Positions 2,897 through 22,433 of a DNA stretch of 64,000 bases are shown here, in pieces. The notes beneath the pieces are model-generated. The model had not been told where the DNA came from. It ran no database searches and saw only the letters and a list, made by a program, of their open reading frames with translations. Location of the stretch: contig JAJRQC010000167.1 of the NCBI GenBank assembly GCA_024280455.1, forward strand, positions 1 to 64,000. The letters are read 5' to 3'. Position 1 is the stretch's first letter. The number at the start of each line of letters is the position of its first letter. A program made the position numbers and the translations under genes. Origin of the DNA: Deltaproteobacteria bacterium. Lineage in GTDB: Bacteria; Desulfobacterota; Desulfobulbia; Desulfobulbales; Desulfobulbaceae.

Positions 2897-3721
2897 TTAA
2901 TCCGCACTTTTATAAAAGCCGTAGCTCAAGTCAAAGGGTATATTCTTGCGGATATACAGATCAACAAAGGTGTTTATATGGGCGATGGCGGACTTGGGAA
3001 CGTAGACAATATCATACGGCTCCAGAACAACATTCTGGGTCACATCCGTCCCGTCCATGGCTGCATCCACATCGACCTTCAAGACAAAGGGTCGTTTCAG
3101 GTTATTGCGCCGGATAATCAAGACTTCACTCCTGCGGGCACTGTTTTTTAATCCCTTGACACTGGCAATGGCCTGCATAATTGTCAACCCTCCCCCCATT
3201 TCAACCATGCCGGGCTGAACAACCTCTCCATCGACATAAACTCTCTGGGAATCAAAAGAGCGGACAATCACACTGATTTCCGGATCCCTGAGATGGGACG
3301 AGAATTTTTCCTTCAGAACGGCGGACAACTCGCTTGTGGTCAGAGAGGCGGCCTGAACTTCCTGAACCAACGGCAGAGAGATACGACCATCCGGGCGAAC
3401 CGTGACGGATTCGTCGAGCAACGGATTATAAAAAAACTTCACATCAATCTCATCGCCCGGATGGATGATATAGGCAGGCGTAACCGAGGCCAGCGAGGGG
3501 GCTGGAGGTTCAAGCGTCCCCTGCTCACTGATTGGAACCGGAGTTTGCGGCCCGGCGCTGCAGCCCGCCAGCAACAACAGCAGAAAGAGAACGCCAAAGA
3601 CACTCTTCAGGAACAGGCTCTTTTCAGCAGCTGCCCGGTCTGCTTGAAATCGCTGCCCGGAAAAAAGACAGCCATCCTCTTTTTCCAAAGAATAACGCGT
3701 ACACATTATGTCTTTAACCAT
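2897..3721 (-). CDS. Polysaccharide export outer-membrane lipoprotein (Wza-like)
   Basis: Outer-membrane export component for capsule or exopolysaccharide. The 274-residue protein has a late signal segment (hydrophobic stretch 41-51) ending in the lipobox LLAGC with Cys54, then a poly-export domain (about 75-155, with IIHPGDEIDV) and an SLBB domain (about 160-215, with VYVDGEVVQPG). At 274 residues it is shorter than classical Wza, as in the reduced family of many Desulfobacterota. Its ATG overlaps the stop of the Wzz-like gene (TGATG at 3719-3723), which suggests translational coupling. An internal start nearer the signal peptide is possible. Confidence 0.8.
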   Translation of the reverse strand: MVKDIMCTRYSLEKEDGCLFSGQRFQADRAAAEKSLFLKSVFGVLFLLLLLAGCSAGPQTPVPISEQGTLEPPAPSLASVTPAYIIHPGDEIDVKFFYNPLLDESVTVRPDGRISLPLVQEVQAASLTTSELSAVLKEKFSSHLRDPEISVIVRSFDSQRVYVDGEVVQPGMVEMGGGLTIMQAIASVKGLKNSARRSEVLIIRRNNLKRPFVLKVDVDAAMDGTDVTQNVVLEPYDIVYVPKSAIAHINTFVDLYIRKNIPFDLSYGFYKSAD

Positions 3722-5121
3722 CAGATTTTCCGCCCCTTCACGTTCTCTATCAGCAGCCCGTAGGAAAGACTGCAGGCAGCTCCCAGGATGATGCCGACCA
3801 AGACATTGAGCTTCTTTCTCGGCTTGATCGGCTTAATCGGCACCATGGGTTTTTCAATAACAACCACATTGACCATCTTCTGCCTGTCCATGGCGTCCCG
3901 TATTCGACTGTCCTCTAGGCGGCCAACAAAATTCTTATATGTTTGCGCAGTCGTATCAACCTGGATCGACAACTCTCTGAACTTTACTTCCTGTTCTGAC
4001 AACTTCTGCAACTGGGCTTCAAGACCTTTCAACTGCCGCTCAAGCTCCGCGGTTTTTTCTTTTTGCCCGACATACTCGGCCCTTACCACAGCAAGTTTAA
4101 AGCTCAACTCCTGATAGACGGAGTTTTGCCCTGTAGAGACTTTTTCCTGGGAACTCTCCCCCTGCTCTGCGAGGAAGTCCCTCACCAGCGCAATCTTCTT
4201 GCGTACAGCTATAACTAATCGATTATCTTCAGGGTATTGTTCCAAAAGCTGCTTTTCCTCAAGCTGCAAGTCCAGCAAAATTGAACTTGAACGGGCCTCA
4301 CTCTGGTCGTTTAGCCTTGTTGTGGATTCCTCGGTTCGTAAAATCCTCTCAGGTACCCTTTCCCGCTCCCGCTCCAATGCGGACGCATTTTCTTCAAGCT
4401 TGGATAAATTACTGCGAACCTCAATGAGCATTGTGTTTATCTGAACATATTGCTCCATGAGTACTCGCTGCTGATGCTTAGGGGAAAAAATTTTGTTTTC
4501 CTGTTTATACAGTGTCAACGCATTCTCAGCATCTTGCAGTTGCCGGCTGTAGACGCCGACCTGTTTTTCCAGAAAGGCCGTCTGCGGATTTTTAAAAATC
4601 TGCAAATGACGTTCCTTAAACAGTTCAGTCAAGAGGCTCACCGCCTGAACAGCAAGCTCAGGATCCTGGTGCTGAAAACTCACATTAATGACATTGGATT
4701 CTTTGACATGAAACAACTGCAACTTCTTCCCAAATCGGCTTACGGCCATGGCCAGCAGCCGTTTTTTGTCCTCCACCTTATCGGCAAGTTTCGGAAAAAG
4801 CTGTTCAAGTCCGATAGAATCAACAACTTTCTCAGCTAATTTTTTACTTCTGAAAATTTCAAGCTCCGTATTGATCCACGGAGTTGTTTTAAAGGTATAC
4901 TGAGGTTGTATTTCTCCACTTTTCCTTACCGGATGATAGAAGTATTCTCTGCCATACTTCACCATGACGCTGGACATAACCTCATAAATCGGAGTCTGGG
5001 TAAGGGTCCAGACTGTCACAATGGAAACAATGATGATAAAAATAACGGACATCCCGAAGAGATGTCTTCGCAATGTAACAAAGATATCAAGCAGGGTATT
5101 TTGACTGTATTCTTCTTGCAT
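3721..5121 (-). CDS. Polysaccharide chain-length/co-polymerase protein (Wzz/GumC-like)
   Basis: Inner-membrane partner of the exporter. The 466-residue protein has a membrane segment near residues 24-43 and another near 440-458, with a long periplasmic region between them rich in Glu/Lys/Leu coiled-coil sequence (about 190-390). A Pro-rich stretch (MVPIKPIKPRKK) precedes the second membrane segment, as in Wzz proteins. There is no Walker A motif after it, so the tyrosine-kinase domain of some BY-kinase fusions is absent. No glycosyltransferases lie next to this pair, so the polymer is unknown. Confidence 0.8.
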   Translation of the reverse strand: MQEEYSQNTLLDIFVTLRRHLFGMSVIFIIIVSIVTVWTLTQTPIYEVMSSVMVKYGREYFYHPVRKSGEIQPQYTFKTTPWINTELEIFRSKKLAEKVVDSIGLEQLFPKLADKVEDKKRLLAMAVSRFGKKLQLFHVKESNVINVSFQHQDPELAVQAVSLLTELFKERHLQIFKNPQTAFLEKQVGVYSRQLQDAENALTLYKQENKIFSPKHQQRVLMEQYVQINTMLIEVRSNLSKLEENASALERERERVPERILRTEESTTRLNDQSEARSSSILLDLQLEEKQLLEQYPEDNRLVIAVRKKIALVRDFLAEQGESSQEKVSTGQNSVYQELSFKLAVVRAEYVGQKEKTAELERQLKGLEAQLQKLSEQEVKFRELSIQVDTTAQTYKNFVGRLEDSRIRDAMDRQKMVNVVVIEKPMVPIKPIKPRKKLNVLVGIILGAACSLSYGLLIENVKGRKI

Positions 5122-5542: not shown

Positions 5543-6934
5543 ATGCTTCATTTCTTAAAAACGCATATAAAAAAAATCTTCGCCCTGATTTCCATGCTTG
5601 GCGCGCTGGCGCTGTTACTTTTCTCCACCGACACCTTTTCACCCATTGAAACAAAAACCGCCGCCCTCTCCCTGGTGACTATCGGCTTCTGGGCCACAGG
5701 CGTGATTCCCGAACACATTACCTCGCTGTTATTTTTTCTCCTGGCAATGTTGTTTTCCATAGCAACCCCGGAAGTCATCTTTGCAGGGTTTGCTTCACCC
5801 GCGGTATGGCTGGTTTTCGGCGGCCTGATCATCGGGGTCGCGATCATGACGACCGGACTGGGCAAAAGGATCGCCGACTGGATTGCCACCAGGCTTCACG
5901 GAAGTTACCTGCGCATCATCAGCGGCCTGGTAATAACAGGTGTCCTGTTCAGTTTTCTCATGCCCTCGGCCATGGGACGAGTTGTCCTCCTGACCCCGAT
6001 AGCCATTGCCATAGCGGAACATTTTGGATTCAAAGAAGGCTCTAAGGGAAGAACCGGAGTTCTGCTTGCAATCATTCTCGGCACCTTTATCCCCGCATTC
6101 GGTATATTACCTGCCAATGTGCCCAATATGATTCTTATCGGTATGGCGGAAACCCAGTATCAGGTCTCTCTTCTTTACGGTCCGTACCTGTTCCTGCACT
6201 TTCCGATTCTGGGCCTTGTCAAGGCAGTACTTATCGTCGGCCTCATTCTCTGGTTCTATCCGGATCAACCGGTCGAGATGGCCGAGCAGGATATTGAGCA
6301 ACATCCGCCCATGTCCCGCAATGAGACCATCCTGGCATTTGCCGTCGGCATCATGCTCGCCCTGTGGATGCTCGACTTTCTCCACCATATTTCACCGGCA
6401 TGGATTGCCCTTGCCGGAGCGATTTTTCTGCTCCTTCCCGGCATTGATATTGTCGGCAAAAAACAGTTTAATCAAAAGATCAACTGGGCCTCAATTTTTT
6501 TTATTGCCGGCATCCTCGGCCTCGGGGAAATGATAAATCACTCGGGACTCGGACAGACACTTGCAACAAAAATCATTGCCCTGCTCCCCATTGGTGAGGG
6601 ACGGGATTTTGTCAATTTCGTCTCCATCAGCTTCGCATCCGCCCTGACCGGTATAGCAACCACACTTCCCGGCGTACCCGCAGTCTTCACACCGCTCTCG
6701 GAAACGCTTGCCCAGACCACAGGCTTGCCGATTAAAACGGTACTGATGATGCAGGTTATAGGTTTCTCAACCACTATTTTCCCCTATCAGGCTCCACCCA
6801 TTGTCATCGGCATGCAGTTATCCGGTGAAAAGTTCTCCAGTGCGGCAAAACTCTGTGCGGTTCTGGCAGCAATAACCGCTCTTTTTCTCCTGCCGATCAA
6901 TTATTTCTGGTGGAAACTGCTGGGCTGGTTATAA
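5543..6934 (+). CDS. SLC13/DASS-family membrane transporter
   Basis: Likely a sodium-coupled anion symporter for dicarboxylates, sulfate or a similar anion. The 463-residue protein is almost entirely hydrophobic, with about 11-12 predicted membrane helices. The family-like segment IGFWATGVIPEHITSLLFF lies near residue 46, and a second repeat near residues 370-420 contains FPYQAPPIVIGMQ. It stands alone between two intergenic regions, so the neighbours give no substrate hint. Confidence 0.7.
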   Translation: MLHFLKTHIKKIFALISMLGALALLLFSTDTFSPIETKTAALSLVTIGFWATGVIPEHITSLLFFLLAMLFSIATPEVIFAGFASPAVWLVFGGLIIGVAIMTTGLGKRIADWIATRLHGSYLRIISGLVITGVLFSFLMPSAMGRVVLLTPIAIAIAEHFGFKEGSKGRTGVLLAIILGTFIPAFGILPANVPNMILIGMAETQYQVSLLYGPYLFLHFPILGLVKAVLIVGLILWFYPDQPVEMAEQDIEQHPPMSRNETILAFAVGIMLALWMLDFLHHISPAWIALAGAIFLLLPGIDIVGKKQFNQKINWASIFFIAGILGLGEMINHSGLGQTLATKIIALLPIGEGRDFVNFVSISFASALTGIATTLPGVPAVFTPLSETLAQTTGLPIKTVLMMQVIGFSTTIFPYQAPPIVIGMQLSGEKFSSAAKLCAVLAAITALFLLPINYFWWKLLGWL

Positions 6935-8387: not shown

Positions 8388-8987
8388 ATGAAACAAAAAA
8401 TTGCTCTCCTCTTCGCAGGCTGCATTATTCTTCTGTATGCATTTGCACTTCCCGCTCAAAGTTGTGTCGGCCGAATCCTGACGCTGTCGATAGATGATAC
8501 GGTTGAACAGAAAGTTATAGGCCAGTTGCTTGCAACCTATATTACGGAACGAACCGGGACCACGGTCAACTTAACGACCGTACTGGATGTAAAGGCAAGC
8601 GAAGACTTAATTGTGGAATGCAAGGCGGATATCTTCTTGAATTACATTAATGTCGGCATGGCAGGCATGGAGGATGCGCGTACCGCAGCGGGTACTCAAG
8701 AGTCCTACTCACTTGTCAAACAGTATTATCTGGAAAAAAACAATATGGTATGGCTGAAGCCTCTTGGCTACAAAGGACCATTGCAGAATGCTGCGGGCAG
8801 CATATCCCTTGCAGTACCGGTCACCACCAAAGACGTCCTGGACAGGTTTCCAGTCTTAGACCGGGTTATCAACAAGTTAAGCGGACGGATTGACGACAGA
8901 ACCATGCAGCAATTGATGCAAAAAGCAGAGACCGACGGGGTTGAGGTTGCAGTTAAAGGCTTTCTGAAAGCCCAGAACCTTATCTAA
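8388..8987 (+). CDS. Secreted OpuAC-like substrate-binding protein, short
   Basis: Signal peptide of about 25 residues (MKQKIALLFAGCIILLYAFALPAQS). The mature part reads like the first half of a glycine-betaine/quaternary-amine binding protein: SIDDTVEQKVIGQLLATYI, then VECKADIFLNYINVGMAG. At 199 residues it is clearly shorter than the usual 270-300, and no ABC ATPase or permease is adjacent. It may be a single-lobe sensor or solute scavenger. It begins the plus-strand set that leads to YedE. Confidence 0.5.
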   Translation: MKQKIALLFAGCIILLYAFALPAQSCVGRILTLSIDDTVEQKVIGQLLATYITERTGTTVNLTTVLDVKASEDLIVECKADIFLNYINVGMAGMEDARTAAGTQESYSLVKQYYLEKNNMVWLKPLGYKGPLQNAAGSISLAVPVTTKDVLDRFPVLDRVINKLSGRIDDRTMQQLMQKAETDGVEVAVKGFLKAQNLI

Positions 8988-9120
8988 TAAGATAAATATC
9001 TGAAACAGGTACTGATACGAGAACAGCTGTACGGCGTTGTGATTAATCGAAAAAAGGTAAGCCCGATATTCCCGTAATCTTGTCGCCCCGGTGAACGGTT
9101 ACGAAAAAAGAGAGGAAAAA

Positions 9121-9615
9121 ATGCAAAAACTGTTTTTAGCTCTGACTGTTGTTTTACTGATGTCCGGTTCCGCTGCTGCCCACGGGAACATTTCAAAGCT
9201 TCCCGACTCGGTCCAGATTCTGCAATACAAGATGAAATTGTACATGAATGCTGACGATGCCGACACCAAAAACAGTCTGGCAATGGCCTATTTTCGAACC
9301 AACCAGCTGGATGAAGCAAAAAATGAGCTCTCCTCTATCCTGGAAAAAGATGCGAATAATTTTAATGCCCTTGACGGGATGGGTCTGGTTTTGATTAAAG
9401 AAGGGAATGGTGCCGAGGCCCTGGACTATTTAAAAAGGGCGCAGAAGGTAAACGACAAGGACGTTATGCTTCATGTCCACCTTTCCGTTGCGCACTCCCA
9501 ACTCAAAGAGGCGGATCTTGCCCGCAGTGAAATGGACAAGGCTAAAGCCCTGGCATCCGGCCCGGAAGAATTGACCAGGATTCAGGAAGAAGTAAAGATG
9601 ATAACCAACTCTTAA
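9121..9615 (+). CDS. Secreted TPR-repeat protein
   Basis: An N-terminal signal peptide (MQKLFLALTVVLLMSGSAAAH) is followed by about three tetratricopeptide repeats (residues about 40-150, e.g. NSLAMAYFRTNQLDEAKNEL and ALDGMGLVLIKEGNGAEAL), predicting a periplasmic scaffold for protein contacts. I chose the ATG at 9121 because it starts the signal peptide and follows AGAGGAAAAA; an in-frame upstream start at 9091 would add ten residues. It lies between two binding-protein genes and is probably cotranscribed with them. Confidence 0.7.
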   Translation: MQKLFLALTVVLLMSGSAAAHGNISKLPDSVQILQYKMKLYMNADDADTKNSLAMAYFRTNQLDEAKNELSSILEKDANNFNALDGMGLVLIKEGNGAEALDYLKRAQKVNDKDVMLHVHLSVAHSQLKEADLARSEMDKAKALASGPEELTRIQEEVKMITNS

Positions 9616-9633: not shown

Positions 9634-10548
9634 ATGAAAAAATTTACCTTTTTTGTCCTCTGTGCAGTGCTACTCTCACTGGCAGGATGTAAGGGCCAGA
9701 ACAGTAGCCCGGCTGTAAGTAACGAGAAACCTGTCAAAATCGGATTTATGATCTGTGACAGTCGAAAGGAATCCGAGGAACGTTTTGCACCGTTTGTTGC
9801 CTACTTAAGTGAGAAAACCGGCCGTAAATTTGAAATGATCCTGGCCAACACCTTTGAATTTGAACGTCTTTTCAAAGAGAAAAAAGTCGACTTTTTCCAT
9901 GTGAATTCTCTGGTCGCAATCCTGTTAAAAGAAAAATTTAACGCCGAGTTTCTCGCGGTCGACATCCGTGGCCGCAACGGTTACAAGGCCAGCGGCACCA
10001 TCATTGCCCGCAAGGACAGCGGTATTAAGACCTTTGAAGACATGCGCGGCAAGACTATGATTTTTGGTCCGGCCCTGGCCCCTTTTGGATATATGGCTCA
10101 ATACGACCTTCTGCTGCAAAACGGTATTGATCCAGAGACGGACCTGTCCAACTACGTAATCCCTCCCGGAGCCGCCAAACATGACAAAGTCCTTTACGGC
10201 GTGTACTTCGGCAAGTACGACCTCGGAGCCGCACCAAGAATTGACCTGGACCGCATGATTGATGCCGGCATCTTCACCAAGGATGACTTTACGGTCATTG
10301 CCGAGAGCGAGACCATGCCCTACTGTACAATCGGCGCCCAGCCTGATGCGGATCCTGCCCTGAAGGAGCAGATAAAGGAGATAGCCTTGAATCTGAAAAA
10401 GGATGAGACCGTACTGATAAACGGCGAAGTGCTCAGGGTGCTCGATCGGATGCTGCTTGATGGTTTTGCCCCTGCTATCGACAGTGAATACGAACCGATC
10501 AGGGATCGCATGAAACGTTGCAATATGGCTCCATATAGAAAATTTTAA
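9634..10548 (+). CDS. PhnD-like phosphate/phosphonate-type substrate-binding lipoprotein
   Basis: A lipoprotein signal (FFVLCAVLLSLAGC, Cys20) precedes a PhnD/PtxB-type periplasmic binding fold: VKIGFMICDSRKESEERFAPFVAYLSEKTGR, then FFHVNSLVAILL and EDMRGKTMIFG. At 304 residues it is full length. No transport ATPase or permease is adjacent, so it may act as a sensor or deliver its ligand to another transporter. Related proteins bind oxyanions such as phosphonate or phosphite; the ligand here is open, and the YedE context makes a sulfur or selenium oxyanion worth testing. A second PhnD-like protein is at 51176-52069. Confidence 0.7.
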   Translation: MKKFTFFVLCAVLLSLAGCKGQNSSPAVSNEKPVKIGFMICDSRKESEERFAPFVAYLSEKTGRKFEMILANTFEFERLFKEKKVDFFHVNSLVAILLKEKFNAEFLAVDIRGRNGYKASGTIIARKDSGIKTFEDMRGKTMIFGPALAPFGYMAQYDLLLQNGIDPETDLSNYVIPPGAAKHDKVLYGVYFGKYDLGAAPRIDLDRMIDAGIFTKDDFTVIAESETMPYCTIGAQPDADPALKEQIKEIALNLKKDETVLINGEVLRVLDRMLLDGFAPAIDSEYEPIRDRMKRCNMAPYRKF

Positions 10549-10564: not shown

Positions 10565-11560
10565 ATGAAAAAATCAGCGACATCCCATATGGTCAACCGG
10601 GCAGCCCTGACGCTTATTGCAGGTATGACTGTTTTCCTCCTGTCACTGTCCCCGGTACTTGCAGGACAGCTCGTCATCAATAAAGGGATTATTGACAGGG
10701 ATACCGTATGGCAGGGCGATGTTTTGATCAAAGGTGATGTGGAAGTTGCCAAAGGAACTACCCTGACCATAATGCCTGGGTCCGTTATCCGATTTGAAAA
10801 AATCGAAGAATTCGGCCCGCAGAAACTCAGTAAGGATAAACTCAGCCATTTCCCCAGAGCGGAACTCATTATCAGGGGCAAGCTCTATGCGCAGGGAACC
10901 CTGGAAAACAAGATAACCTTTACCAGCGCTGAAGAGTCTCCATCACCTGGGGACTGGGGCGCGGTGAACTTTCTTGACAGTGTTGACAACATCATCGAGT
11001 TTTGTGTCTTCACCTATGGCCATACCGCAGTGCACTGCCATTCGTCACAGGTTGTTATCGCCTACTCCACTTTTCATTATAACGGAGTGGCAATCGGCCA
11101 GAAAAATGCCAAGGGATTGCCGAACAAATGCGTTGTCCCCATACTGTACAATCGGATAACGGAAAACGGCGGCGGCGTATTATTTGGTGGTGGATCGACT
11201 CCGACGGTTGCTCATAACGAGATCAACAACAACACCTTTTTCGGGATCTATGCAAAGAAAGGCGGCGTTGCCAATGTTCGCTACAACAACATTAGAAATA
11301 ACGGCAAAGGGATTATCTTCTTCAAGGTGAAGGATATCTTCCTCAGAGACAACAACATCGTCGACAACAAGGATTACAACGTTTCCATGCTTGATGGGCA
11401 ATCCACCGATATTATGCTGCAAAATAACTGGTGGGGCACCACGGATACGGCCAAGATACAAGATCTTGTCCGGGACAAGAAACGTGACGACACCCTTGGC
11501 CGTGTTGACTTTTCAAACATTCTGAAAAAACCCGTCGTCGGTGCCGGATTGCTCTGGTAA
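10565..11560 (+). CDS. Secreted right-handed beta-helix (NosD-like repeat) protein
   Basis: A signal peptide (about residues 1-34, ending SPVLAG) precedes a chain of short parallel beta-helix repeats with Asn ladders (NRITENGGGVLFGG, NEINNNTFFGIYA, NNIRNNGKGIIFF). The end reads LQNNWWGTTDTAKIQDLV, a motif common at the C-terminus of such repeats. This matches the NosD/CASH family seen in periplasmic metal-loading or carbohydrate-binding proteins. It follows the PhnD-like gene by 16 bp. No enzymatic residues can be assigned. Confidence 0.65.
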   Translation: MKKSATSHMVNRAALTLIAGMTVFLLSLSPVLAGQLVINKGIIDRDTVWQGDVLIKGDVEVAKGTTLTIMPGSVIRFEKIEEFGPQKLSKDKLSHFPRAELIIRGKLYAQGTLENKITFTSAEESPSPGDWGAVNFLDSVDNIIEFCVFTYGHTAVHCHSSQVVIAYSTFHYNGVAIGQKNAKGLPNKCVVPILYNRITENGGGVLFGGGSTPTVAHNEINNNTFFGIYAKKGGVANVRYNNIRNNGKGIIFFKVKDIFLRDNNIVDNKDYNVSMLDGQSTDIMLQNNWWGTTDTAKIQDLVRDKKRDDTLGRVDFSNILKKPVVGAGLLW

Positions 11561-11924: not shown

Positions 11925-12506
11925 TTGGATGACAGTGCTCTGTATGCTCTTGTTTCCAGCCCAACCGCCATGGATCTGATTCACAAACTAAGCATTACCG
12001 CGCTGGTTCTCCTGTCGTTGATCACGGCAGGCATGCTGATTCAACATCAGGTGTCTACCAAAGGTCTCCAGGGTTCAGCCAATACCCGGAAAATAGACTT
12101 AAAAAAATATTACGAAGATCGGATGGCCCGGGATGCTGAAATCTTTGCGGAAGTGATCCAGCTGCAGGAGCAGAAGCAGTTCTCACAGGCACTGGAAAAG
12201 CTTGAAGAAATTCGGACAGCTCACCCGGACAACCCGCAATCATATGTTTATCAGGCCCAATTGGAATACTCTCAGGGACAGCTTGCCGCCGCCATTCATA
12301 GTTATCGACAGGCAGTGGATAATGAACCCGACTATGTGGACAAGAAAACGCCGCTCTTCATAGGCAATACAATGCTGGAGCTGATAAATGAGGCTCGAGG
12401 GAAACTTCAGCGAGAGAAAAAATTAAAGCCCAAAGACCGAACCATCCTCATTGCACTGGATGATCTCTTATACTTACAACGCCGAATTGCCGGGGGGTGT
12501 GAATAA
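11925..12506 (+). CDS. Membrane-anchored TPR protein next to YedE
   Basis: One N-terminal membrane segment (about residues 22-40, LSITALVLLSLITAGMLI) is followed by a soluble helical part with tetratricopeptide character (QKQFSQALEKLEEIRTAHPDNPQSYVYQAQLEYSQGQLAA, described here in two halves). The start is uncertain: TTG at 11925 lies very close to AGAGGAAG, while an in-frame ATG at 11970 lacks a ribosome site. The stop adjoins the GTG of the YedE gene, so the two are probably translated together and may interact in the membrane. Confidence 0.6.
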   Translation: MDDSALYALVSSPTAMDLIHKLSITALVLLSLITAGMLIQHQVSTKGLQGSANTRKIDLKKYYEDRMARDAEIFAEVIQLQEQKQFSQALEKLEEIRTAHPDNPQSYVYQAQLEYSQGQLAAAIHSYRQAVDNEPDYVDKKTPLFIGNTMLELINEARGKLQREKKLKPKDRTILIALDDLLYLQRRIAGGCE

Positions 12507-13586
12507 GTGGCTCGATTTAAAGTACCGGATCTCGCGATAATTACAGGGGCAGCCCTGGGACTTGGTGCCGTTACCCTGACGCTGCTCGGCAACCCCGCCA
12601 ATTCAGGGATATGCATCTCCTGCTTCATGGAGAATCTTGCAGGAGCCCTGCAATTGCAGGACAACATGCGGATGAGTTACATCAGGCCGGAGTTGATCGG
12701 CTTCCTGCTTGGTTCCTTTTTCATGGCCAAAAAGAGCAAACGCTTTCATGTTACGGGTGGCTCATCTCCTATCATACGTTTTTTTCTCGGCTTCTTCATT
12801 ATTGTCGGCTGCGCCGTCTTTATCGGCTGTCCCATTAAAATGATACTGCGCCTGGCTGCCGGAGACTTGACTGCAGTAGCCGCAGTACTTGGACTGGTTT
12901 TCGGAATCTGGCTGGGGACAAAATATATCCGGGCCGGCGTCTTTCTTGACAGAGAAAAACAGATGCCGACAATCAACGGTTATATATTCCCCGCCATAGG
13001 CGTATTGCTCTTGATTTTTCTTGTCCTTAAGCCCGGCTTTATCCATCAGGGCGAAACCGGCCCTGCGGCACAACGGGCGCCCCTGCTCATCGCCCTGGCC
13101 ATTGGTCTTATAATCGGTGGGCTGGCGCAGCGTTCAGGGCTCTGTATCACCGGGGGGATTCGAAATTTCCTGCTGGTACGCGAAACGACCCTGCTCTACG
13201 GCGTTATTACGACCTTTATCACAGCCATGCTCCTCAGCATGGTCAGTGGCCAGTTTAACCTGGGCCTGGAAGGTCAGCCCGCATCCCATATGGGTCATGG
13301 CTGGACTTTTCTGGCCATGACTCTTGTCGGACTCGCCTCGGTCATGATTGACGGTTGTCCATTTAGACAGGTCATCAAGGCCGGCCAGGGAGATATTGAT
13401 GCCGGTATCACATGTTTCGGCATGTTGACCGGAGCTGCTTTCGTTATCACCTGGCTTTTGCGAAGCACATCCGCCGGTCCTTCTTTCAATGGCAAAATTG
13501 CCGTGCTGGTTGGCTTAATATTCTGTGTTATCGTTGCCCTGAATTACCGCAAGCTTACCGGAAAACGTGGTCGCAGCCACACATGA
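12507..13586 (+). CDS. YeeE/YedE-family sulfur or selenium compound channel
   Basis: Polytopic inner-membrane protein (359 residues, about 9-10 helices) of the family that includes thiosulfate-importing YeeE and the selenium-associated YedE. Conserved cysteine motifs are visible: GICISC near residue 35, FIGCPIKM near 108, RSGLCITGG near 211 and IDGCPFRQVIKAGQGD near 280. The start is GTG, directly after the TPR gene stop. A DUF3343 gene, a common partner of YedE in selenium clusters, lies 600 bp downstream. No selD is visible in the window, so a sulfur role is at least as likely as selenium. Confidence 0.8.
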   Translation: MARFKVPDLAIITGAALGLGAVTLTLLGNPANSGICISCFMENLAGALQLQDNMRMSYIRPELIGFLLGSFFMAKKSKRFHVTGGSSPIIRFFLGFFIIVGCAVFIGCPIKMILRLAAGDLTAVAAVLGLVFGIWLGTKYIRAGVFLDREKQMPTINGYIFPAIGVLLLIFLVLKPGFIHQGETGPAAQRAPLLIALAIGLIIGGLAQRSGLCITGGIRNFLLVRETTLLYGVITTFITAMLLSMVSGQFNLGLEGQPASHMGHGWTFLAMTLVGLASVMIDGCPFRQVIKAGQGDIDAGITCFGMLTGAAFVITWLLRSTSAGPSFNGKIAVLVGLIFCVIVALNYRKLTGKRGRSHT

Positions 13587-14185: not shown

Positions 14186-14737
14186 ATGAACTGGTTTAAA
14201 AAACTCACTAAAAAAGAACCCGAAGATGCCGGAGATGTTGAGGTGAAACGAGGGCTTCTCGTCTTTGCCCATCCAACAACCGTCATTTCGGTTGAAGAGC
14301 TTCTGCGAGACGAAGGGTATGAAATTCGTGTCGTCAGTCCGCCGCCCGCATATAGAACGGGTTGTGACCTCAGCGTTGAATTTCCTCTCTCGGAAGAGGC
14401 AACGATTACCGAACTTCTCAATACCTGTGGGATGTCACCCCTTGATGTCGTTCCCATTACCAGCCGCGGAACGGAACCGTTGCGATTCGTCCGCACAACA
14501 ATGTATGGCAAATACATCATGGTCAGGGCCGCCAATATGAAAATGACGGTTGACCAGGAAACCAAAATAATCGTCAATATTTCCGGTGGTGGCTGCCCCG
14601 ATGTTCCATACCTGGCCACAGAGATGCTGGGAAAACGGCTTCGTGATGCACCAGATCCAGGTGAGGTCGGCTTTTCCCTGTGTGCCTATTCTCTGAACAC
14701 CTCCCGCGAAGAACTTATTCGTGTAATAGGAGATTAA
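14186..14737 (+). CDS. DUF3343-type putative S/Se carrier with a second C-terminal domain
   Basis: 183 residues. The first part matches the DUF3343 pattern: RGLLVFAHPTTVISVEELL, then PPPAYRTGCDLSVEF with a Cys at the position proposed to carry sulfur or selenium. The second part (about 95-183) has SGGGCPDVPYLA and GFSLCAYSL, two more cysteines, and I do not recognise it. The ATG at 14186 has GGAGG seven bases upstream, which is better than the in-frame upstream start at 14108. It is the first gene of the cluster, 3 bp before the kinase gene. A role in passing sulfur to the downstream ThiS/ThiF pair is inference. Confidence 0.65.
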   Translation: MNWFKKLTKKEPEDAGDVEVKRGLLVFAHPTTVISVEELLRDEGYEIRVVSPPPAYRTGCDLSVEFPLSEEATITELLNTCGMSPLDVVPITSRGTEPLRFVRTTMYGKYIMVRAANMKMTVDQETKIIVNISGGGCPDVPYLATEMLGKRLRDAPDPGEVGFSLCAYSLNTSREELIRVIGD

Positions 14738-14740
14738 TCC

Positions 14741-15610
14741 ATGTTGCTTTTAGCTGGTGCAGTTCCCGTTGAACATCTTCCTCTGTTGATAGGACCGATT
14801 GAAGTCAGCCCGACAGGAATAACAATAGACGGAAACAAGCTCCCGATCAATCGCGGTAACGAAGCGATGATGTCTGCGGCCTGTCTTATCTGCAAAGAGT
14901 ATGGGATTGAAGCCCCGGTAGGCATGGTTGCCGGGGATATCGGCAAGCGGGAAGGAAGTATTGCGATCTATAAACATCTCGCTGAGCATCTTCCGGAAAT
15001 GGGCGTTAAGGTACTGACTCTTCACTATGTTATGCCGGATCTTAAACTCAATAAAAAGGTCCTGGCAACCATTGATACCATGGCGGAAGAGGACAAACCG
15101 CTCATGATTGCCGATGCCGGCAGCATGTATGTCGCTAAAGCCGGTGGTGATGCCCATTATTACCAGGTTTTCACCCCCGATCTTGGCGAAACCGCCTTCC
15201 TTGCCGATGACAAGGCGGACCACCCCAGCTTTACCCGTGGTTTTATTTTTAACATGGAAGAAGACGTTCCCGAACTCATCCGCAGAGCGTATGCCGGCAA
15301 GAATGCCACCCCAACCATGTTCGTTAAGGGAAAGGTTGACTACATCTGCCAGGACGGTGAAATCGTCGACACCATTGACCAGCCATCCGTTGAAACCATG
15401 GAGCCTATCGGCGGTACCGGAGATCTCATCACCGGTATGATCAGTGCCTTGATCTATGCCGGAGAAACACCTCTGCAGGCCTGTCGCATTGCCGGCAGAG
15501 TAAACAGAGCCGCGGGTGAGCTTGCTCAGCCCACTCCAGCGACCCAGATCGACCAGATACTACGTTTCCTGCCCGAAGCACTGGCAAAGGTACAAAAACA
15601 ATTAGGTTAA
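14741..15610 (+). CDS. YjeF C-terminal-type kinase (NAD(P)HX dehydratase-like)
   Basis: Ribokinase-fold protein of 289 residues with the ATP/active-site motif GGTGDLITG near residue 228, the hallmark of ADP/ATP-dependent NAD(P)H-hydrate dehydratase domains. The N-terminal epimerase domain of bifunctional Nnr enzymes is missing. Placed inside a sulfur-carrier cluster, it could be a specialised small-molecule kinase rather than the repair enzyme. IADAGSMYVAKAGGDAHYY and FTPDLGETAFLADD line up with the substrate side of the family. Neighbours are 3 and 4 bp away. Confidence 0.65.
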   Translation: MLLLAGAVPVEHLPLLIGPIEVSPTGITIDGNKLPINRGNEAMMSAACLICKEYGIEAPVGMVAGDIGKREGSIAIYKHLAEHLPEMGVKVLTLHYVMPDLKLNKKVLATIDTMAEEDKPLMIADAGSMYVAKAGGDAHYYQVFTPDLGETAFLADDKADHPSFTRGFIFNMEEDVPELIRRAYAGKNATPTMFVKGKVDYICQDGEIVDTIDQPSVETMEPIGGTGDLITGMISALIYAGETPLQACRIAGRVNRAAGELAQPTPATQIDQILRFLPEALAKVQKQLG

Positions 15611-15614
15611 GATT

Positions 15615-15878
15615 ATGGCTACTATTATTATTCCATTTCCCTTTCGCAAGCATACCGAGAACCAGCGAGAGATCAGCCTCACCGGCGAAACCCTGGACAA
15701 CGTACTGGACGGGCTGCTTAAGCAGTACTCAGGGCTGCAGGTTATTCATGACCAACCAGGATTGCTGTCCATATTCGTCAACGGCAAGTCAGTCGCCGGT
15801 GGTGCTGACAATTGGGCCGATGTTGCAATTGCCGACAGTGATGAAATCTCTCTGATTATCCCGATTGCCGGAGGTTGA
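15615..15878 (+). CDS. ThiS/MoaD-like sulfur carrier protein
   Basis: An 87-residue beta-grasp protein ending exactly in Gly-Gly (IIPIAGG), the form that is adenylated and thiocarboxylated by ThiF/MoeB enzymes. SIFVNGKSVAGG and ADSDEISLIIPIAGG match the ThiS/MoaD core. No processing is needed to expose the Gly-Gly, unlike HcyS-type carriers with an extra residue. It is followed at once by the JAMM gene and shares the cluster with a ThiF homologue, which fits carrier-based sulfur transfer as in CysO, HcyS or QbsE systems. Confidence 0.85.
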   Translation: MATIIIPFPFRKHTENQREISLTGETLDNVLDGLLKQYSGLQVIHDQPGLLSIFVNGKSVAGGADNWADVAIADSDEISLIIPIAGG

Positions 15879-15886
15879 AAAAGCGC

Positions 15887-16447
15887 ATGAGCTTGTTCAG
15901 TAACACAGACCGGATCCTTCTTCCCGCTGAGAAATGGGAAGCAATCGTCACCCATTGCAAAAGGAAACTGGCAGGTGAGTTCCTCCCAGGTGAAAGCCGG
16001 GTCAAGAGGGCGTATGGGATTCTGGCCGGTGTTCAGGAGGGCCGCGAACTTCATGTCCGGCGTGTCCTGCCGGTCAAGAAAAACGCCCGGAACAACGAAC
16101 CGCTGAAGACCTATATGGATACGATGATGACGGAACATGCCGTTGCATCAACGACTCCTCTGAGCCAGCGGGGATGGATTACCGATCCCCGGGAACTCAT
16201 GGAGTGTTACGACCTTTGCGACCGGGAAGATCTCCAGATTTTCGGGACCTATCATATGCACATTGTGCCCTGGGAAGGTGATGCCGTCCGCGACACCCCT
16301 ACCCTCCTTGATACCGTGCTGGCAAAAGAAAGTAATCTGTATTCCTTCATCATATCAATAGTCGATATTGAACACCCTTTCATGCGTGCCTTTTATGAAG
16401 GGGTTAACGACAAAGAAACTCCACTTGTCATACAAGAGAATTCATAA
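15887..16447 (+). CDS. JAMM/MPN-type metalloprotease-like protein
   Basis: Expected to cleave a product off the ThiS-like carrier, as Mec+ does with CysO. The 186-residue protein has the zinc His pair in TYHMH (His123, His125), with Asp136 at the canonical distance. The usual Ser of the HxHx7SxxD motif is Ala133; a shifted reading with Thr139/Asp142 after a longer loop is also possible. I chose ATG 15887, 12 bases after GGAGG; a TTG at 15875 would overlap the carrier stop. Activity therefore needs testing, but the gene context is strong. Confidence 0.65.
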   Translation: MSLFSNTDRILLPAEKWEAIVTHCKRKLAGEFLPGESRVKRAYGILAGVQEGRELHVRRVLPVKKNARNNEPLKTYMDTMMTEHAVASTTPLSQRGWITDPRELMECYDLCDREDLQIFGTYHMHIVPWEGDAVRDTPTLLDTVLAKESNLYSFIISIVDIEHPFMRAFYEGVNDKETPLVIQENS

Positions 16448-16462
16448 CGAGCAGGGGACATC

Positions 16463-17740
16463 ATGATTGAGAGCCTAAATACCGAACCTGAACTGGTTGT
16501 CGAATACACGGATCCCATTGAAGGTTTCAAAGGGTGGCTGGTCATCGACTCCATGACACATAATTTATGTGCCGGAGGTCTGAGAGTCCAACCCGGGCTT
16601 ACCCGCGAATGTGTTCAACGTCTTGCCGCAACAATGACGCTCAAGATGCGAATTGCCGGGATCAAGGCCGATGGCGCGAAAAGCGGGATTGATTACGACC
16701 CGTCAAGCCCCGGAAAACATGAGGCTCTCTATAGATTTATCCGGGCAATCAAACCATTTATCAAGCAATGCTATTCCATGGGGCCCGACATGAACACCAC
16801 CATGCCGGAACTGGATGCAGTCTGTTCGCGACTCGGCATCACCTCGATCAAAACAGCTGTGGCCAGGGCCCAAAACCTTACCCCTGCTGAATTCGACCAG
16901 AGGACGGCCCTGCTGTCTCAACCGATCGGCCACGCAACGCTTGGTAAATTGCGTGCCGGTTCCGGACTGGCTGCTTCCTGTCTCGGGGTCCTTGAATTTC
17001 TGGGCATCCCCGCCGGGGAGGCAACGGTTTCGATCCAGGGATTTGGTGGTCTGGCTGCCGGAGCCGCGTATTTTCTCGATCAGGCCGGGGTGAAAATTGT
17101 CGGCCTTGCCGACCGGGAAAAAAGCCTGATCAGCTCCGACGGAGAGGCTCTTGATATCCCATCATTTCTCAGCGGATCCGTTGACGGCATAATTCCATAT
17201 ACGACTTCCACCGGCAGATACGGCAGAAGAGAAGAAATCTATTCCGTCCCCTGTGATGTCTTTATTCCGGCTGCAGTAGAAAATGCTGTTGGGGCCCTGG
17301 AAGCCAGATCCATGCAGGTTCGAGCCATCGCCTGTGGTGCCAACCTTGCGGTGACTGCAGATGCTGAAAAAATTCTCCATGAGCGCGATATTCTTTTAAT
17401 TCCGGACATGGTTGCCGGCTGCGGAGGATCTTTGTCCATGGAGGGGCTGTTTGCACCCGACCACCTGCCGTCGGTCAAAGAAGTGCTAGCCCATGTGGAT
17501 AGCAAGACCCGCGTTATTGTAAACAACCTGCTGACACGCAGCCAAAAAGACAAGGTTCCGCCCAGAGAGGCTGCCTTACGGCTTTGTGCCGAGGCATCCG
17601 TCTATCCCGGCACCCGACCCTATGGTGCTCTAACCAAAAAAGTCGACTCTCCGGAACCCCGGAGGAAGGCTGCACAGAAAACCCGCAGCCACAGACTTCC
17701 ATCCCGGTACATAAACGGCCATGCCTGTCCATCCGTTTGA
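16463..17740 (+). CDS. Glu/Leu/Phe/Val dehydrogenase family enzyme
   Basis: Amino-acid dehydrogenase fold of 425 residues. Substrate and catalytic lysines are in MTLKMRIAGIKADGAKSGI (residues about 55-73), GPDMNTTMPEL follows near residue 110, and a Rossmann segment VSIQGFGGLAAGAAYFL lies near 190. The last 35 residues are basic and look like an extension. In the cluster it would interconvert a 2-oxo acid and an amino acid with ammonia and NAD(P)H. It reads closer to leucine dehydrogenase-type enzymes than to canonical GdhA, but the substrate cannot be read. Its end overlaps the next gene by 20 bp. Confidence 0.75.
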   Translation: MIESLNTEPELVVEYTDPIEGFKGWLVIDSMTHNLCAGGLRVQPGLTRECVQRLAATMTLKMRIAGIKADGAKSGIDYDPSSPGKHEALYRFIRAIKPFIKQCYSMGPDMNTTMPELDAVCSRLGITSIKTAVARAQNLTPAEFDQRTALLSQPIGHATLGKLRAGSGLAASCLGVLEFLGIPAGEATVSIQGFGGLAAGAAYFLDQAGVKIVGLADREKSLISSDGEALDIPSFLSGSVDGIIPYTTSTGRYGRREEIYSVPCDVFIPAAVENAVGALEARSMQVRAIACGANLAVTADAEKILHERDILLIPDMVAGCGGSLSMEGLFAPDHLPSVKEVLAHVDSKTRVIVNNLLTRSQKDKVPPREAALRLCAEASVYPGTRPYGALTKKVDSPEPRRKAAQKTRSHRLPSRYINGHACPSV

Positions 17741-19121
17741 TTATCAGATAAATCCACACGTCTTCAGTACGCCTGAATTTGAAGCGCTGTTTGATGAACG
17801 GACCATCTTTCAGCGCTGGCTCGATTTTGAAGCGGCCCTGGCAACGGCACAGGAAAAATTCGGCGTCATTCCCGTTGAGGCAGCTCAAGAGATACGCAAC
17901 AAGGCACAGCTTGAGCTGATTGACCTTGAGGCTGTACGGGCAGGTTATGCCAAGAGCCGCAACTCAGTGGTTCCACTTCTCGGTGGACTTCGACGGGCCT
18001 GCAGCGGCTCTCATGGCGAATACGTTCACTACGGGGCAACGACCCAGGATGTTCTTGATACCGGCGAAATTCTTGCCTTGAGGGAAACACTCTCCCTGCT
18101 CTATCGCGATCTTCGATCACTTGAAAAAATCCTCCTCAACCTGGCCCTGAAACACCGAGCAACCCCCATGGCGGCCAGAAGTCACGGCCAGCAGGCACTG
18201 CCCACGACGTTCGGCCTGAAAGTTACCATATGGGCAGCAGAAATTCGACGTCATATCGAGCGCCTACAACACCTCCATTCCATTATCAGCCACGGCCAGT
18301 TAAGTGGCGCCATCGGCACCTATGCCGCCCTCGGACCCCAGGGACTGGAAATTGCGAATGAAACCATGGCTCTGCTTGGCCTCAAGCACAGTGCACTATC
18401 CTGGCATACCGCCCGGGATACTATTGCCGAACTGGCTGCCGATTTTTCCATGCTGGTCATGACTCTTGCAAAAATTGCCAATGAGATTTTTCAACTCCAG
18501 AAGACTGAAATCGGTGAACTGCAGGAACCTTCTATTTCCGGCGCTCTTGCGAGCAGTACAATGCCGCACAAACAAAATCCGGTCATCTGTCAACGGGTGA
18601 TCGCACTGTCAAAACATGTGCGAGGTCTTGCCGGAATAGTCATGGAAGGCATGGGCCACGAACATGAACGTGATCCCCGCAGCCTGTGGGCGGAGTGGCT
18701 GGCTATACCACAGCTCTGCATTTATACCGGCAATGCCCTTCAATCCATGGTCGATGTTCTTACCGGCTTGACCATCCGGCCCGAACGAATGCTCGAAAAT
18801 CTGTACCGACAGAAAAACCTGATAACAACGGAATGGCTTCTCTTCAGGCTCAGCGAACATCTGGGCAAGACAAAATCTCTGGAAAAGCTGCACGCGCTTT
18901 CAGCTGCAGCCGCCGAAGAAAATACCAGTCTCAAGGAAGCAGTCCTTGCCGATGCCGAGATTGGTTCGATGTTCAGCCGGGAAGATCTTGAGCCGCTTGA
19001 CCATCCCGAAGACTATACCGGTCAAGCTATCAAAATAGTGGACCTGACGGTTGCAGAAATTTCTACCAGACGCCAGAGTGATTCCGATGCTTTACCTTCA
19101 GGGCGGATTGTTAACCACTAA
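17721..19121 (+). CDS. Fumarase/aspartase-superfamily lyase 1 (PurB/CMLE-like)
   Basis: 466 residues. It has the superfamily regions YVHYGATTQDVLDT (about residue 94), ARSHGQQALPTTFG (about 151) and the catalytic-loop signature SSTMPHKQNP (about 274). The signature is nearer to carboxymuconate cycloisomerase/adenylosuccinate lyase than to fumarase. Such enzymes add to or eliminate from fumarate-like acceptors through N, O, S or a halide. It overlaps the dehydrogenase gene by 20 bp and precedes a paralogue, which argues for a biosynthetic step rather than purine synthesis. Confidence 0.75.
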   Translation: MPVHPFDYQINPHVFSTPEFEALFDERTIFQRWLDFEAALATAQEKFGVIPVEAAQEIRNKAQLELIDLEAVRAGYAKSRNSVVPLLGGLRRACSGSHGEYVHYGATTQDVLDTGEILALRETLSLLYRDLRSLEKILLNLALKHRATPMAARSHGQQALPTTFGLKVTIWAAEIRRHIERLQHLHSIISHGQLSGAIGTYAALGPQGLEIANETMALLGLKHSALSWHTARDTIAELAADFSMLVMTLAKIANEIFQLQKTEIGELQEPSISGALASSTMPHKQNPVICQRVIALSKHVRGLAGIVMEGMGHEHERDPRSLWAEWLAIPQLCIYTGNALQSMVDVLTGLTIRPERMLENLYRQKNLITTEWLLFRLSEHLGKTKSLEKLHALSAAAAEENTSLKEAVLADAEIGSMFSREDLEPLDHPEDYTGQAIKIVDLTVAEISTRRQSDSDALPSGRIVNH

Positions 19122-19155
19122 GACCCTATTATTCAACCGATGAGCTATACTCTCC

Positions 19156-20613
19156 ATGAGCGACTGTAATTTCAGCTGTCATATTGTCGATTCCGGATTC
19201 TACAGTTCGGCCTATACTACGGCTGAATGCCGTAAGGTCTTTTGCGACATCTACCGGTATCAGCGCTGGCTTGACGTTGAGGTTGCTCTTGCCATGGCCC
19301 AGGCCGAACTTGGACTCATCCCGGTCAGTGCAGCGGAAAATATTCGGGATAATGCTAAGATAGGCTCCCTTGACCTTGACGCGATCCGGCAGGGACTGAA
19401 GGTGACAAGTCATTCCCTCATGCCCCTGCTCAATGCCCTGCGTCAGGTCTGCACCAAGGAAGCAGGCCAGTTCATTCATTTTGGCGCAACGACCCAGGAT
19501 ATCCAGGACACTGCCCAGATTCTGGAGATCAAAAATATTTTAAAACTGGTTGAACGTGATCTGGTCATCATTATCGGCCAGGTTATTGCTCTTGCTGAAA
19601 AATACGGCAACCTGGTGACCATCGGCCGTACCCACACCCAGCATGCACTGCCCATGACCATGGGATTAAAGATGGCGGTCTGGCTGGACGAGCTGTACCG
19701 GAACCTGGAACGGTTCGAAGAAATGAAAGGGCGGGTGCTGGTCAGCCAACTCTTTGGCGGAGTCGGCACCATGGATCCTTTTGGCGATCAGGCCTTTGCC
19801 CTGCTTGACAACTTTTCCACCCGACTCGGGCTCGAAGCGCCGAATGTGGCCTGGCATTCCTCCCGTGACCGCATTACCGAATTCCTCTCGACCATGGCTA
19901 TGATTTCCGGCACCCTTGCCAAGGTTGCTGATGAGATCCGCTGCCTTGCCCGCAATGAAATAGGAGAGATGGAAGAACCCTTTCAGATGGGTAAGATCGG
20001 CAGCAGTACGATGCCGCATAAGAGAAACCCGGAAATGTGTGAACAGGTGGTAGTCCTGTCAAAACTGATCAAATCCAATGCCGGACTTGGTTTTGAAGGC
20101 TTGCTCAATGAACATGAACGAGATTACCGATCCGTCCGCCTGGAATGGGTTACAGTTACCGACACCTCGCTTTTTACCTGCGGTCTGCTGGGCCTCATGA
20201 AGGATATTCTTGATGACCTGAGGATCCACGAAGACAAGGTTCGGGAAAACGTCAACAGGGCCGCGCCCCTCATTTCAACTGAAGCACTGATGTTTTTCCT
20301 TGGCCGGTCCATAGGCAAACAGACCGCACATACACTTATTTACGAAACATCCATGGAAGCGATCGAAACGGGCAAGCCGTTACTTGATCTTCTGATGATT
20401 CGTCCTGAAATTAACGGACACTTCAGCAGGGAAAAAATGCAGCAGGCCATGCTGCCGGAATGTCATGTCGGGATGTCGCAACCGCTCACTCAGCGTACCA
20501 TTGATTATGTTAAGGCCAGGTTGCAGCAACGGGGCACGTTGCAGCCCGTTGGAGCCCCCTGTCCATTGGCAACAGAGGAGGGAACATGTTGCAAGCAGAG
20601 AAAAAACAAGTAG
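19156..20613 (+). CDS. Fumarase/aspartase-superfamily lyase 2 (PurB/CMLE-like)
   Basis: 485 residues, clearly related to the preceding gene product (e.g. RYQRWLDVEVALAMAQAELG against RTIFQRWLDFEAALATAQEK). Motifs are FIHFGATTQDIQDT, GRTHTQHALPMTMG with the catalytic His region, and GSSTMPHKRNPEMCEQ. The C-terminal tail contains a Cys pair (GTCCKQRK). A 28-bp overlap with the ThiF gene indicates coupled expression. Two differing lyases suggest two successive addition/elimination steps or a heteromeric enzyme. Confidence 0.75.
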   Translation: MSDCNFSCHIVDSGFYSSAYTTAECRKVFCDIYRYQRWLDVEVALAMAQAELGLIPVSAAENIRDNAKIGSLDLDAIRQGLKVTSHSLMPLLNALRQVCTKEAGQFIHFGATTQDIQDTAQILEIKNILKLVERDLVIIIGQVIALAEKYGNLVTIGRTHTQHALPMTMGLKMAVWLDELYRNLERFEEMKGRVLVSQLFGGVGTMDPFGDQAFALLDNFSTRLGLEAPNVAWHSSRDRITEFLSTMAMISGTLAKVADEIRCLARNEIGEMEEPFQMGKIGSSTMPHKRNPEMCEQVVVLSKLIKSNAGLGFEGLLNEHERDYRSVRLEWVTVTDTSLFTCGLLGLMKDILDDLRIHEDKVRENVNRAAPLISTEALMFFLGRSIGKQTAHTLIYETSMEAIETGKPLLDLLMIRPEINGHFSREKMQQAMLPECHVGMSQPLTQRTIDYVKARLQQRGTLQPVGAPCPLATEEGTCCKQRKNK

Positions 20614-21332
20614 ATCAGGAACGTTACAGACGACAGATACTGATTGACGGCTGGGGAGTAGAGACACAGGAAAAACTCCAGGACAGCAAAGTCTTTATCC
20701 TCGGTGCCGGCGGTCTCGGCTGCCCTGTTGCCCTCAATCTGACCAGCGCCGGCATCGGCAATATTACAATCTGCGATGCCGACAGTGTTGAACTGAGCAA
20801 CCTGAACCGACAGTTCCTCCATGTGGAAAAAAACATCGGCGTTGACAAGACCACATCCGCAGTCCAGTTCCTCTCCAGCTTCAATTCGGCGGTCAACTTC
20901 ACAACCATTACCGATAAAGTGACGGTTGACAACGTCAACGAGATGGTCGGCGATGCCGACATTATCCTTGACTGTGTAGATAACTTCCCTGCCCGTTACG
21001 CGCTGAACCAATGTGCCATTGAAAAACAGATCCCGCTTGTTCATGCCGCGGTCTGGGGCATGGAAGGACGAGTGACCTTTTTAAAACCACCGGCAACCCC
21101 ATGCCTCTCCTGCCTCTTTCCGGTTGCCCCGCAAAAAGAGGTAATTCCCATCGTCGGGGTTGTCGCCTGCGCCACAGGCAGCCTGCAGGCCATGGAAGCA
21201 ATCCAATACCTTTGCGGCAACCACCAGTCCCTGCAGGGACAGATGCTGATAATGGATTACTCGTCCATGCGGTTCCAGACTCTGGAGATATCCAGGAATC
21301 CAGACTGCCCCGTATGTGAACAGCTCCGGTAA
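20586..21332 (+). CDS. ThiF/MoeB/HesA-type carrier-activating enzyme
   Basis: Adenylates the Gly-Gly tail of a ThiS/MoaD-like carrier before sulfur transfer. The 248-residue protein has the nucleotide motif LGAGGLGCPVALNL near residue 38, DADSVELSNLNRQFL, and a Cys4 zinc site made by PCLSCL and CPVC. The region of the conserved catalytic Cys reads VGVVACATGSLQAMEA, so the usual Cys position is shifted or lost. There is no rhodanese domain. The start has GAGGAGGG upstream. It closes the eight-gene cluster. Confidence 0.85.
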   Translation: MLQAEKKQVDQERYRRQILIDGWGVETQEKLQDSKVFILGAGGLGCPVALNLTSAGIGNITICDADSVELSNLNRQFLHVEKNIGVDKTTSAVQFLSSFNSAVNFTTITDKVTVDNVNEMVGDADIILDCVDNFPARYALNQCAIEKQIPLVHAAVWGMEGRVTFLKPPATPCLSCLFPVAPQKEVIPIVGVVACATGSLQAMEAIQYLCGNHQSLQGQMLIMDYSSMRFQTLEISRNPDCPVCEQLR

Positions 21333-22324: not shown

Positions 22325-22433
22325 GCTGTCGGTAACCCTCTTGAATCGGCTGGTCTATATAGTGATATTACAGATCACTGGATCACAAAAAAAATTGATA
22401 AAGGTGTTCCTGATCATTCTAACAGATTCAACG

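Follow-up and report, generated by a model that had tools for sequence, protein, structure and literature searches.

Related systems and the locus

The nickel exporter RcnA has been tied to the nickel cofactor, or nickel bis(dithiolene) (NiBiD) conductor, of cable bacteria, the synthesis machinery of which is not known (PMC11247825, PMC10959288). Hiralal et al. (2024) found RcnA, with an enlarged histidine loop, in cable bacteria and in none of their Desulfobulbales references (PMC11247825). In this study, we analysed a window of 64,000 nucleotides (positions 1 to 64,000 of contig JAJRQC010000167.1, assembly GCA_024280455.1) from a member of the Desulfobulbaceae, which carries a gene cluster that encodes, among others, a YedE-family transporter, secreted proteins, a ThiS carrier, a ThiF activating enzyme, a JAMM-fold metalloprotein and two lyases, LyaA and LyaB. 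In our reading, the cluster serves, in the Desulfobulbales and in some of their relatives, to synthesise a nickel ligand that contains sulfur and to assemble a nickel-sulfur product in the periplasm; we put the probability of this reading at slightly under one half. The set is also a strong candidate, and a leading one, for building the NiBiD-like conductor of cable bacteria.

The cluster shares with the NiBiD conductor its hosts (Candidatus Electrothrix), the type of RcnA, periplasmic proteins and sulfur-supply genes. However, biosynthesis genes for that conductor have never been described, the cluster is also found in bacteria that are not known to carry a conductor, and its product is read here from the genes. 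A ThiS-like carrier, an E1-like enzyme and a JAMM/JAB protein also occur together in the PdtFGH set for PDTC and in the Qbs set for thioquinolobactin (PMC1779556, row 4a). Unlike in those sets, ThiF lacks a rhodanese domain here, neither a CaiB-like CoA transferase nor an AMP-acid ligase is encoded, a dehydrogenase, a kinase and two lyases take their place, and the carrier appears dispensable. The logic of carrier, activating enzyme and JAMM protein is likewise that of CysO-CysM-Mec+ and HcyS-HcyD-HcyF, whereas our locus has nickel-related and periplasmic genes and no cysteine synthase or MetY-like pyridoxal-phosphate enzyme among its 15 genes. Two tandem lyases of the fumarase/aspartase superfamily are known from coenzyme M synthesis (XcbC and XcbD; NF052535, NF052536), but LyaA and LyaB score 433 and 466 bits against XcbD, which is under the 600-bit cut-off, and no other Xcb gene lies in the block, for which reasons bacterial coenzyme M synthesis was rejected. 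A YedE-family transporter and DUF3343 link our cluster to the selenium trait and the YTD cluster; it differs in that selD is missing in nine of its carriers and that no TusA, DsrE or Chp gene is among its annotated genes. NosD, a beta-helix protein of the periplasm, serves the copper-sulfur centre of N2O reductase. Here, too, a secreted beta-helix protein lies beside metal and sulfur genes, but nosZ and nosFYL are absent and the metal would be nickel. No described pathway with this gene set was found in the literature, and a preliminary description of the locus had likewise named none; unpublished or preprint work may exist.

Conservation and extent of the cluster

The preliminary description had listed eight gene families packed on one strand. 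This was confirmed using Pfam and NCBIfam matches and a fold model of JAMM: eight open reading frames (ORFs) lie on the plus strand at 14186-21332, with overlaps of at most 28 bp and gaps of at most 34 bp. It had also proposed comparing other genomes, and the co-occurrence of the genes withstood that comparison. A JAMM search of GTDB genome contigs returned ten clear relatives, which were Desulfobulbaceae, Desulfocapsa-type or other deltaproteobacterial metagenome-assembled genomes (MAGs), and the gene order was kept across whatever part of the cluster each contig covers. The complete eight-gene order is present in at least eight other genomes (L006, L007, L008, L009, L013, L014, L073 and L155; 42-88% identity), because of which the arrangement can be considered to be far beyond chance. 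A further match, L015 (Lentisphaerae), was discarded as a chance match with no cluster there. A JAMM profile picked up the gene in 51 of the 258 Desulfobulbales genomes, and among 46 genomes of a second order 7 were positive, most of the genomes compared being incomplete MAGs; the cluster extends over 24 of the 69 Desulfobulbales genera and into another order, beyond cable bacteria. With the window JAMM alone as the query, 2 of 297 genomes sampled across the phylum were found. In the genus of the window (g1), JAMM was present in only two of eight genomes (G000 and G328; the others examined are in the series G322-G328). One of those without it, G322, has a 92% identical PhnD, and assembly gaps may be the reason why no cluster is seen there, while the remaining five suggest patchy loss or transfer.

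The unit is larger than the eight genes that had been described. ORF comparison showed that the conserved unit begins about 8.6 kb further upstream, with a block at 5543-13586 whose genes are conserved to the same degree as the eight. The conserved set thus numbers some fifteen genes, and the eight make up half of it. The cluster-type PhnD, which was delimited by a gap in the bit scores (cluster-type copies above 200 bits, paralogues at 93 bits or less), was found in 48 of the 51 JAMM carriers and in 4 of the 207 other Desulfobulbales genomes. Multiple beta-helix paralogues are present in the f97/g210 clusters.

YedE, the periplasmic proteins, JAMM, LyaA and LyaB are common to all of the versions that were compared, while ThiS, ThiF, the dehydrogenase, DUF3343, the kinase and RcnA vary. 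Neither ThiS nor ThiF is present in the versions from cable bacteria, in those of the f96-f107 type or in that of G249; the f96/f97/f101-f107-type clusters keep JAMM, the dehydrogenase and both lyases, and the f96-f107-type clusters have no window-type DUF3343 protein. The dehydrogenase is absent from L010, L011 and G249, and in G363 a universal-stress-like protein, as read from its translation, fills the slot between the kinase and JAMM. Judged by gene content, ThiS, ThiF and the dehydrogenase are dispensable. Because of this variation, the carrier pathway would be one module and not the whole system, and ThiS and ThiF look like an accessory sulfur-supply module. The earlier proposal of a carrier-based pathway therefore survives in part. 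ThiS, which ends in IIPIAGG in 10 of 10 aligned loci, ThiF, which has both CxxC pairs, and the JAMM fold are indeed co-encoded with motif-intact lyases, but the carrier is not the core, since it was lost together with the cluster-type ThiF in Ca. Electrothrix and in the f96/f97/f101-f107 types.

Cable bacteria and the nickel exporter

In the genus g208 (including G372), presumed to be Ca. Electrothrix, JAMM was found in seven of eight genomes, the exception being G370, which is 69% complete. The Ca. Electrothrix genomes that were read hold orthologues of the whole set except ThiS and ThiF. JAMM, the dehydrogenase and LyaA are adjacent (67-71% identity; LyaA 71%), as are DUF3343 and the kinase (71-82%); the LyaB orthologues are 67-70% identical, and the block DASS-OpuAC-TPR1-PhnD-BHel-TPR2-YedE is intact. 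These pieces of the cluster sit at separate loci. The cluster-type ThiF was not found in g208, where the remaining match is a MoeB-like homologue (32-35% identity); no ThiS was present in the g208 stretches that were read, and a search of the cable-bacterial stretches for a substitute Gly-Gly carrier gave no convincing candidate. In the genus g207, a single region holds most of the set, and ThiS and ThiF are missing here as well. The RcnA proteins of g207 have 28-39 histidines in a loop span of about 100 residues, because of which this genus may be the other cable genus.

In G309, LyaB is directly followed by the gene for a nickel/cobalt exporter of the RcnA type, which has a His-rich loop and whose orthologues match the NCBIfam family 'nickel/cobalt efflux transporter' at a score below the model cut-off. 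Exporters of this type were found in 34 of the 258 Desulfobulbales genomes, to which this search was confined. JAMM is present in 33 of these 34 genomes compared with 51 of the 258 overall (Fisher p 1.7e-27; by genus 9e-10), p-values that ignore shared ancestry. In the single exception, G507, the order GluDH-LyaA-LyaB-RcnA-OpuAC-TPR1-PhnD lies on a contig that stops short of the JAMM position. A better argument for the link than the p-values is that it recurs in eight families and that the genes are physically linked, rcnA lying inside the cluster in eleven genomes and 5-7.5 kb from JAMM in ten. Relatives that are not cable bacteria have RcnA as well, and the cluster nearly always accompanies it. 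The RcnA of the window genome is 62% identical to that of G309, has a short loop and is located beside a nik/opp-type ABC transporter operon.

At three loci, LyaB and rcnA are 16-20 kb apart (G368:C1:3680794-3699411, G366:C76:14370-36040 and G361:C7:753-20783). The intervening genes, one of about 1500 aa, are common to G368 and G366 and may include conductor-related genes.

Motifs and folds of the enzymes

JAMM has no Pfam match, but its AlphaFold2 model (pLDDT 78) matches P. furiosus JAMM1, BRCC36 and Rpn11 (Foldseek E down to about 1e-8). Compared with the classical HxHx7Sx2D pattern, the fold and HxHx10D, the latter kept in 12 of 12 aligned orthologues, agree, but the serine is not conserved. 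The two lyases are about 37% identical to each other, and their nearest solved structures are a fumarate lyase (3c8t), trans-aconitate decarboxylase, CMLE and adenylosuccinate lyase. The histidine of T/S-H-x-Q and the first serine of the SSxMP loop, which we take to be the catalytic residues of the superfamily, are invariant in both (H155 and S278 in 28 orthologues of LyaA, H160 and S283 in 29 of LyaB), and because of this both lyases should be active. Among the specialised families, XcbD is one of the best matches. XcbD adds a thiol to an activated alkene.

Several identities of LyaA and LyaB were rejected on their scores: adenylosuccinate lyase PurB (TIGR00928; 312 and 306 bits, cut-off 326), 3-carboxymuconate cycloisomerase (TIGR02426; 302 and 252 bits, cut-off 356) and nitrosuccinate lyase (below the cut-off). 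A separate PurB-like homologue with 28% identity is encoded at G000:C69.

The kinase keeps GGTGD, which is invariant among the aligned orthologues, and K73 and D109 of the dehydrogenase are invariant. A model of the C-terminal domain of the DUF3343 protein (pTM 0.56) had no significant match in the PDB (best E 3e-3). The window genome encodes a second full-length protein of this architecture (G000:C55:47599-48147; L082 7600-8148; 69% identical), and neither a kinase nor YedE was present within the 13 kb that were read around it. Such fused DUF3343 proteins were found in 82 of the 297 genomes sampled across the phylum. They are far more widespread than JAMM and would therefore have a wider role.

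Proposed pathway and alternatives

From the observed gene content, conservation, motifs, presence in cable bacteria and RcnA linkage, we infer the chemistry of every step as follows. YedE would import sulfur and the DUF3343 protein would relay it; where they are present, ThiF would adenylate ThiS and load it with sulfur. The kinase, the dehydrogenase, LyaA and LyaB may then build and sulfurate a small acid through addition or elimination at a fumarate-like double bond, in the manner of XcbD with a thiol. JAMM might set free the final product, or else an intermediate, that is bound as an amide or to a carrier. Finally, nickel pumped to the periplasm by RcnA would be assembled into the product by the NosD-like beta-helix protein, the TPR proteins and the binding proteins there. 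A pathway that forms C-S bonds fits the cluster because sulfur-supply genes (YedE, DUF3343 and ThiS/ThiF) accompany the XcbD-like lyases, and the set is the best candidate known to us for the conductor pathway because sulfur import, lyases capable of C-S chemistry, nickel export and periplasmic assembly proteins come together in bacteria with a periplasmic NiBiD-like conductor. The further step, that the cluster is the synthesis and periplasmic assembly of the NiBiD conductor itself, that such conductors also exist in many other Desulfobulbales and that cable bacteria kept the genes and dispersed them, is put forward tentatively and is somewhat doubtful.

Several observations weigh against the assembly of a nickel-sulfur product, in addition to the shared ancestry that the p-values ignore. 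The chief weaknesses are carriers that lack RcnA and carriers that are not cable bacteria. NiBiD is so far known only in cable bacteria and most of the carriers are not known cable bacteria. ThiS and ThiF were lost in cable bacteria, which leaves sulfur delivery there unexplained. RcnA was not detected in 18 of the 51 JAMM carriers, including the 98% complete Desulfocapsa-type genome G398. Moreover, in strain YB6 NiBiD is present and rcnA is absent (PMC12093952).

Another explanation would be a secreted or periplasmic nickel metallophore, for which the lyases and the dehydrogenase build a carboxylate scaffold and ThiS, ThiF and JAMM make a thiocarboxylate, as in PDTC and thioquinolobactin, while handling of the nickel complex falls to the binding proteins and the nik/opp transporters. 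Lyases of the LyaA/LyaB superfamily can make amino-polycarboxylates, and the operon next to rcnA in the window genome includes an ATPase that matches NikD, CntF and CntD. ThiS-E1-JAB sets are known in siderophore-type pathways (PMC1779556). Nevertheless, ThiS and ThiF are absent from many versions, the block has no acid-CoA ligase, CoA transferase or TonB receptor, and an exporter that sends the metal to the periplasm, together with a conserved NosD-like beta-helix protein, fits assembly better than uptake. We regard a metallophore as unlikely.

The preliminary description had favoured a carrier-based pathway that yields a sulfur-containing amino acid or a cofactor. Read as a carrier-thiocarboxylate route of the CysO/HcyS type, with the cofactor being a soluble one, it would give nickel no special role. 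It is true that the window and no fewer than eight other genomes encode ThiS, ThiF, JAMM and the dehydrogenase together. However, the carrier and its E1 enzyme are lost while the rest remains, the dehydrogenase is lost elsewhere, none of the 15 genes is a cysteine synthase or MetY-like gene, and such a route does not explain the periplasmic block and RcnA. A product of this kind also misses the cable-bacterial distribution, and we now hold it to be quite unlikely.

A helper system for sulfur oxidation or disproportionation, in which YedE and its partners process reduced sulfur for energy metabolism and nickel is incidental, would suit the YedE-type transporter, the Desulfobulbales hosts and the multihaem cytochromes near the cluster in L010, and YTD clusters containing YedE have been linked to disproportionation (PMC12998232). 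It ranks lower again and is improbable, as biosynthetic enzymes dominate, TusA, DsrE and Chp are missing among the annotated block genes, JAMM occurs in no more than 51 of the 258 genomes of an order in which sulfur metabolism abounds, and the association with RcnA is unexplained. Least probable of all is that YedE and DUF3343, which are tied to selenium use (PMC5322559), supply selenium for some selenium compound: selD is over the cut-off in 43 of 52 tested genomes, but no selD over it was found in the other nine (all four g207 carriers, which are 78-95% complete, G374, G380, G520, G533 and G507), and f96-f107-type clusters do without the window-type DUF3343.

Features of the window

The coordinates of the genes are collected in Table 1. 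For JAMM, the ATG at 15887 is the most likely start, since a TTG at 15875 would overlap ThiS. The Wzz-like gene that precedes the block is usually syntenic, but its membership of the cluster is doubtful.

Table 1. Genes of the upstream block and of the eight-gene unit in the window
Feature	Coordinates	Strand	Evidence
Wzz-like chain-length protein, divergent neighbour	3721..5121	-	PF13807; 24-42% identity, same place incl. cable bacteria
DASS/CitMHS-type anion transporter, first block gene	5543..6934	+	PF03600/PF00939; syntenic L006-L014; Ca. Electrothrix 64-68% identity
Short OpuAC-like binding protein, signal peptide	8388..8987	+	PF04069; syntenic, cable bacteria 46-50%
TPR1, secreted TPR protein	9091..9615	+	TPR families; syntenic, cable bacteria 54-59%
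PhnD-like (Phosphonate-bd) lipoprotein	9634..10548	+	PF12974
Secreted NosD-like right-handed beta-helix protein	10565..11560	+	PF13229/PF05048; syntenic, cable bacteria 55-61%
TPR2, TPR protein with N-terminal transmembrane segment; stop adjoins YedE start	11925..12506	+	Syntenic, cable bacteria 42-45%
YedE-family sulfur/selenium transporter	12507..13586	+	TIGR04112, 398 bits (cut-off 200); Ca. Electrothrix 72-75% identity
DUF3343 (Se_S_carrier) protein with conserved C-terminal domain (GGGCPD, SLCAYSL motifs)	14186..14737	+	PF11823; alignment A3; cable-bacteria orthologue
YjeF/ThiM-type kinase (Carb_kinase)	14741..15610	+	PF01256; invariant GGTGD; 80-82% identity to cable-bacteria orthologue
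ThiS/MoaD-like carrier ending IIPIAGG	15615..15878	+	PF02597; C-terminus invariant in 10 orthologues
JAMM/MPN-fold metalloprotein, HxHx10D	15887..16447	+	Alignment A1; AlphaFold2 and Foldseek
Glu/Leu/Phe/Val-type dehydrogenase (ELFV_dehydrog, both domains)	16463..17740	+	PF00208/PF02812
LyaA, PurB/CMLE/XcbD-superfamily lyase	17721..19121	+	PF00206/PF10397 (Lyase_1 and ADSL_C)
LyaB, second lyase, same superfamily as LyaA	19156..20613	+	PF00206/PF10397 (Lyase_1 and ADSL_C)
ThiF/MoeB-like activating enzyme	20586..21332	+	PF00899, 242 bits

Downstream of ThiF, on the minus strand of the window, the region at 21425-25217 looks lasso-peptide-type when its translations are read by eye, with an HPr-kinase-like gene (21425-22168), a possible precursor of 78 aa (22434-22670), an asparagine-synthase-like gene (22783-24696) and a gene for a small protein (24693-25217). 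In other genomes, extra secreted-protein genes are located 3' of ThiF (L010 14273-18937 and L011 14540-19270); those of L010 encode an outer-membrane-like protein, a beta-helix protein, a multihaem cytochrome and other secreted proteins, with homologues in L011 and L008. Additional beta-helix proteins are found in L009 (12679-15137) and in the G309 and G379 clusters. The added proteins of L010, L009, G309 and G379 are possibly electron-transfer or scaffold proteins.

Significance for cable bacteria and their relatives

A conserved candidate set that comprises a nickel exporter, two lyases and a periplasmic assembly block makes it testable how cable bacteria produce the nickel-sulfur material through which they conduct current over centimetres. 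The set also suggests that the capacity is wider than cable bacteria, and it might give genetic access to a conductive biomaterial. Even with a different product, the cluster would be a conserved nickel-linked sulfur pathway of which no description was found in the literature.

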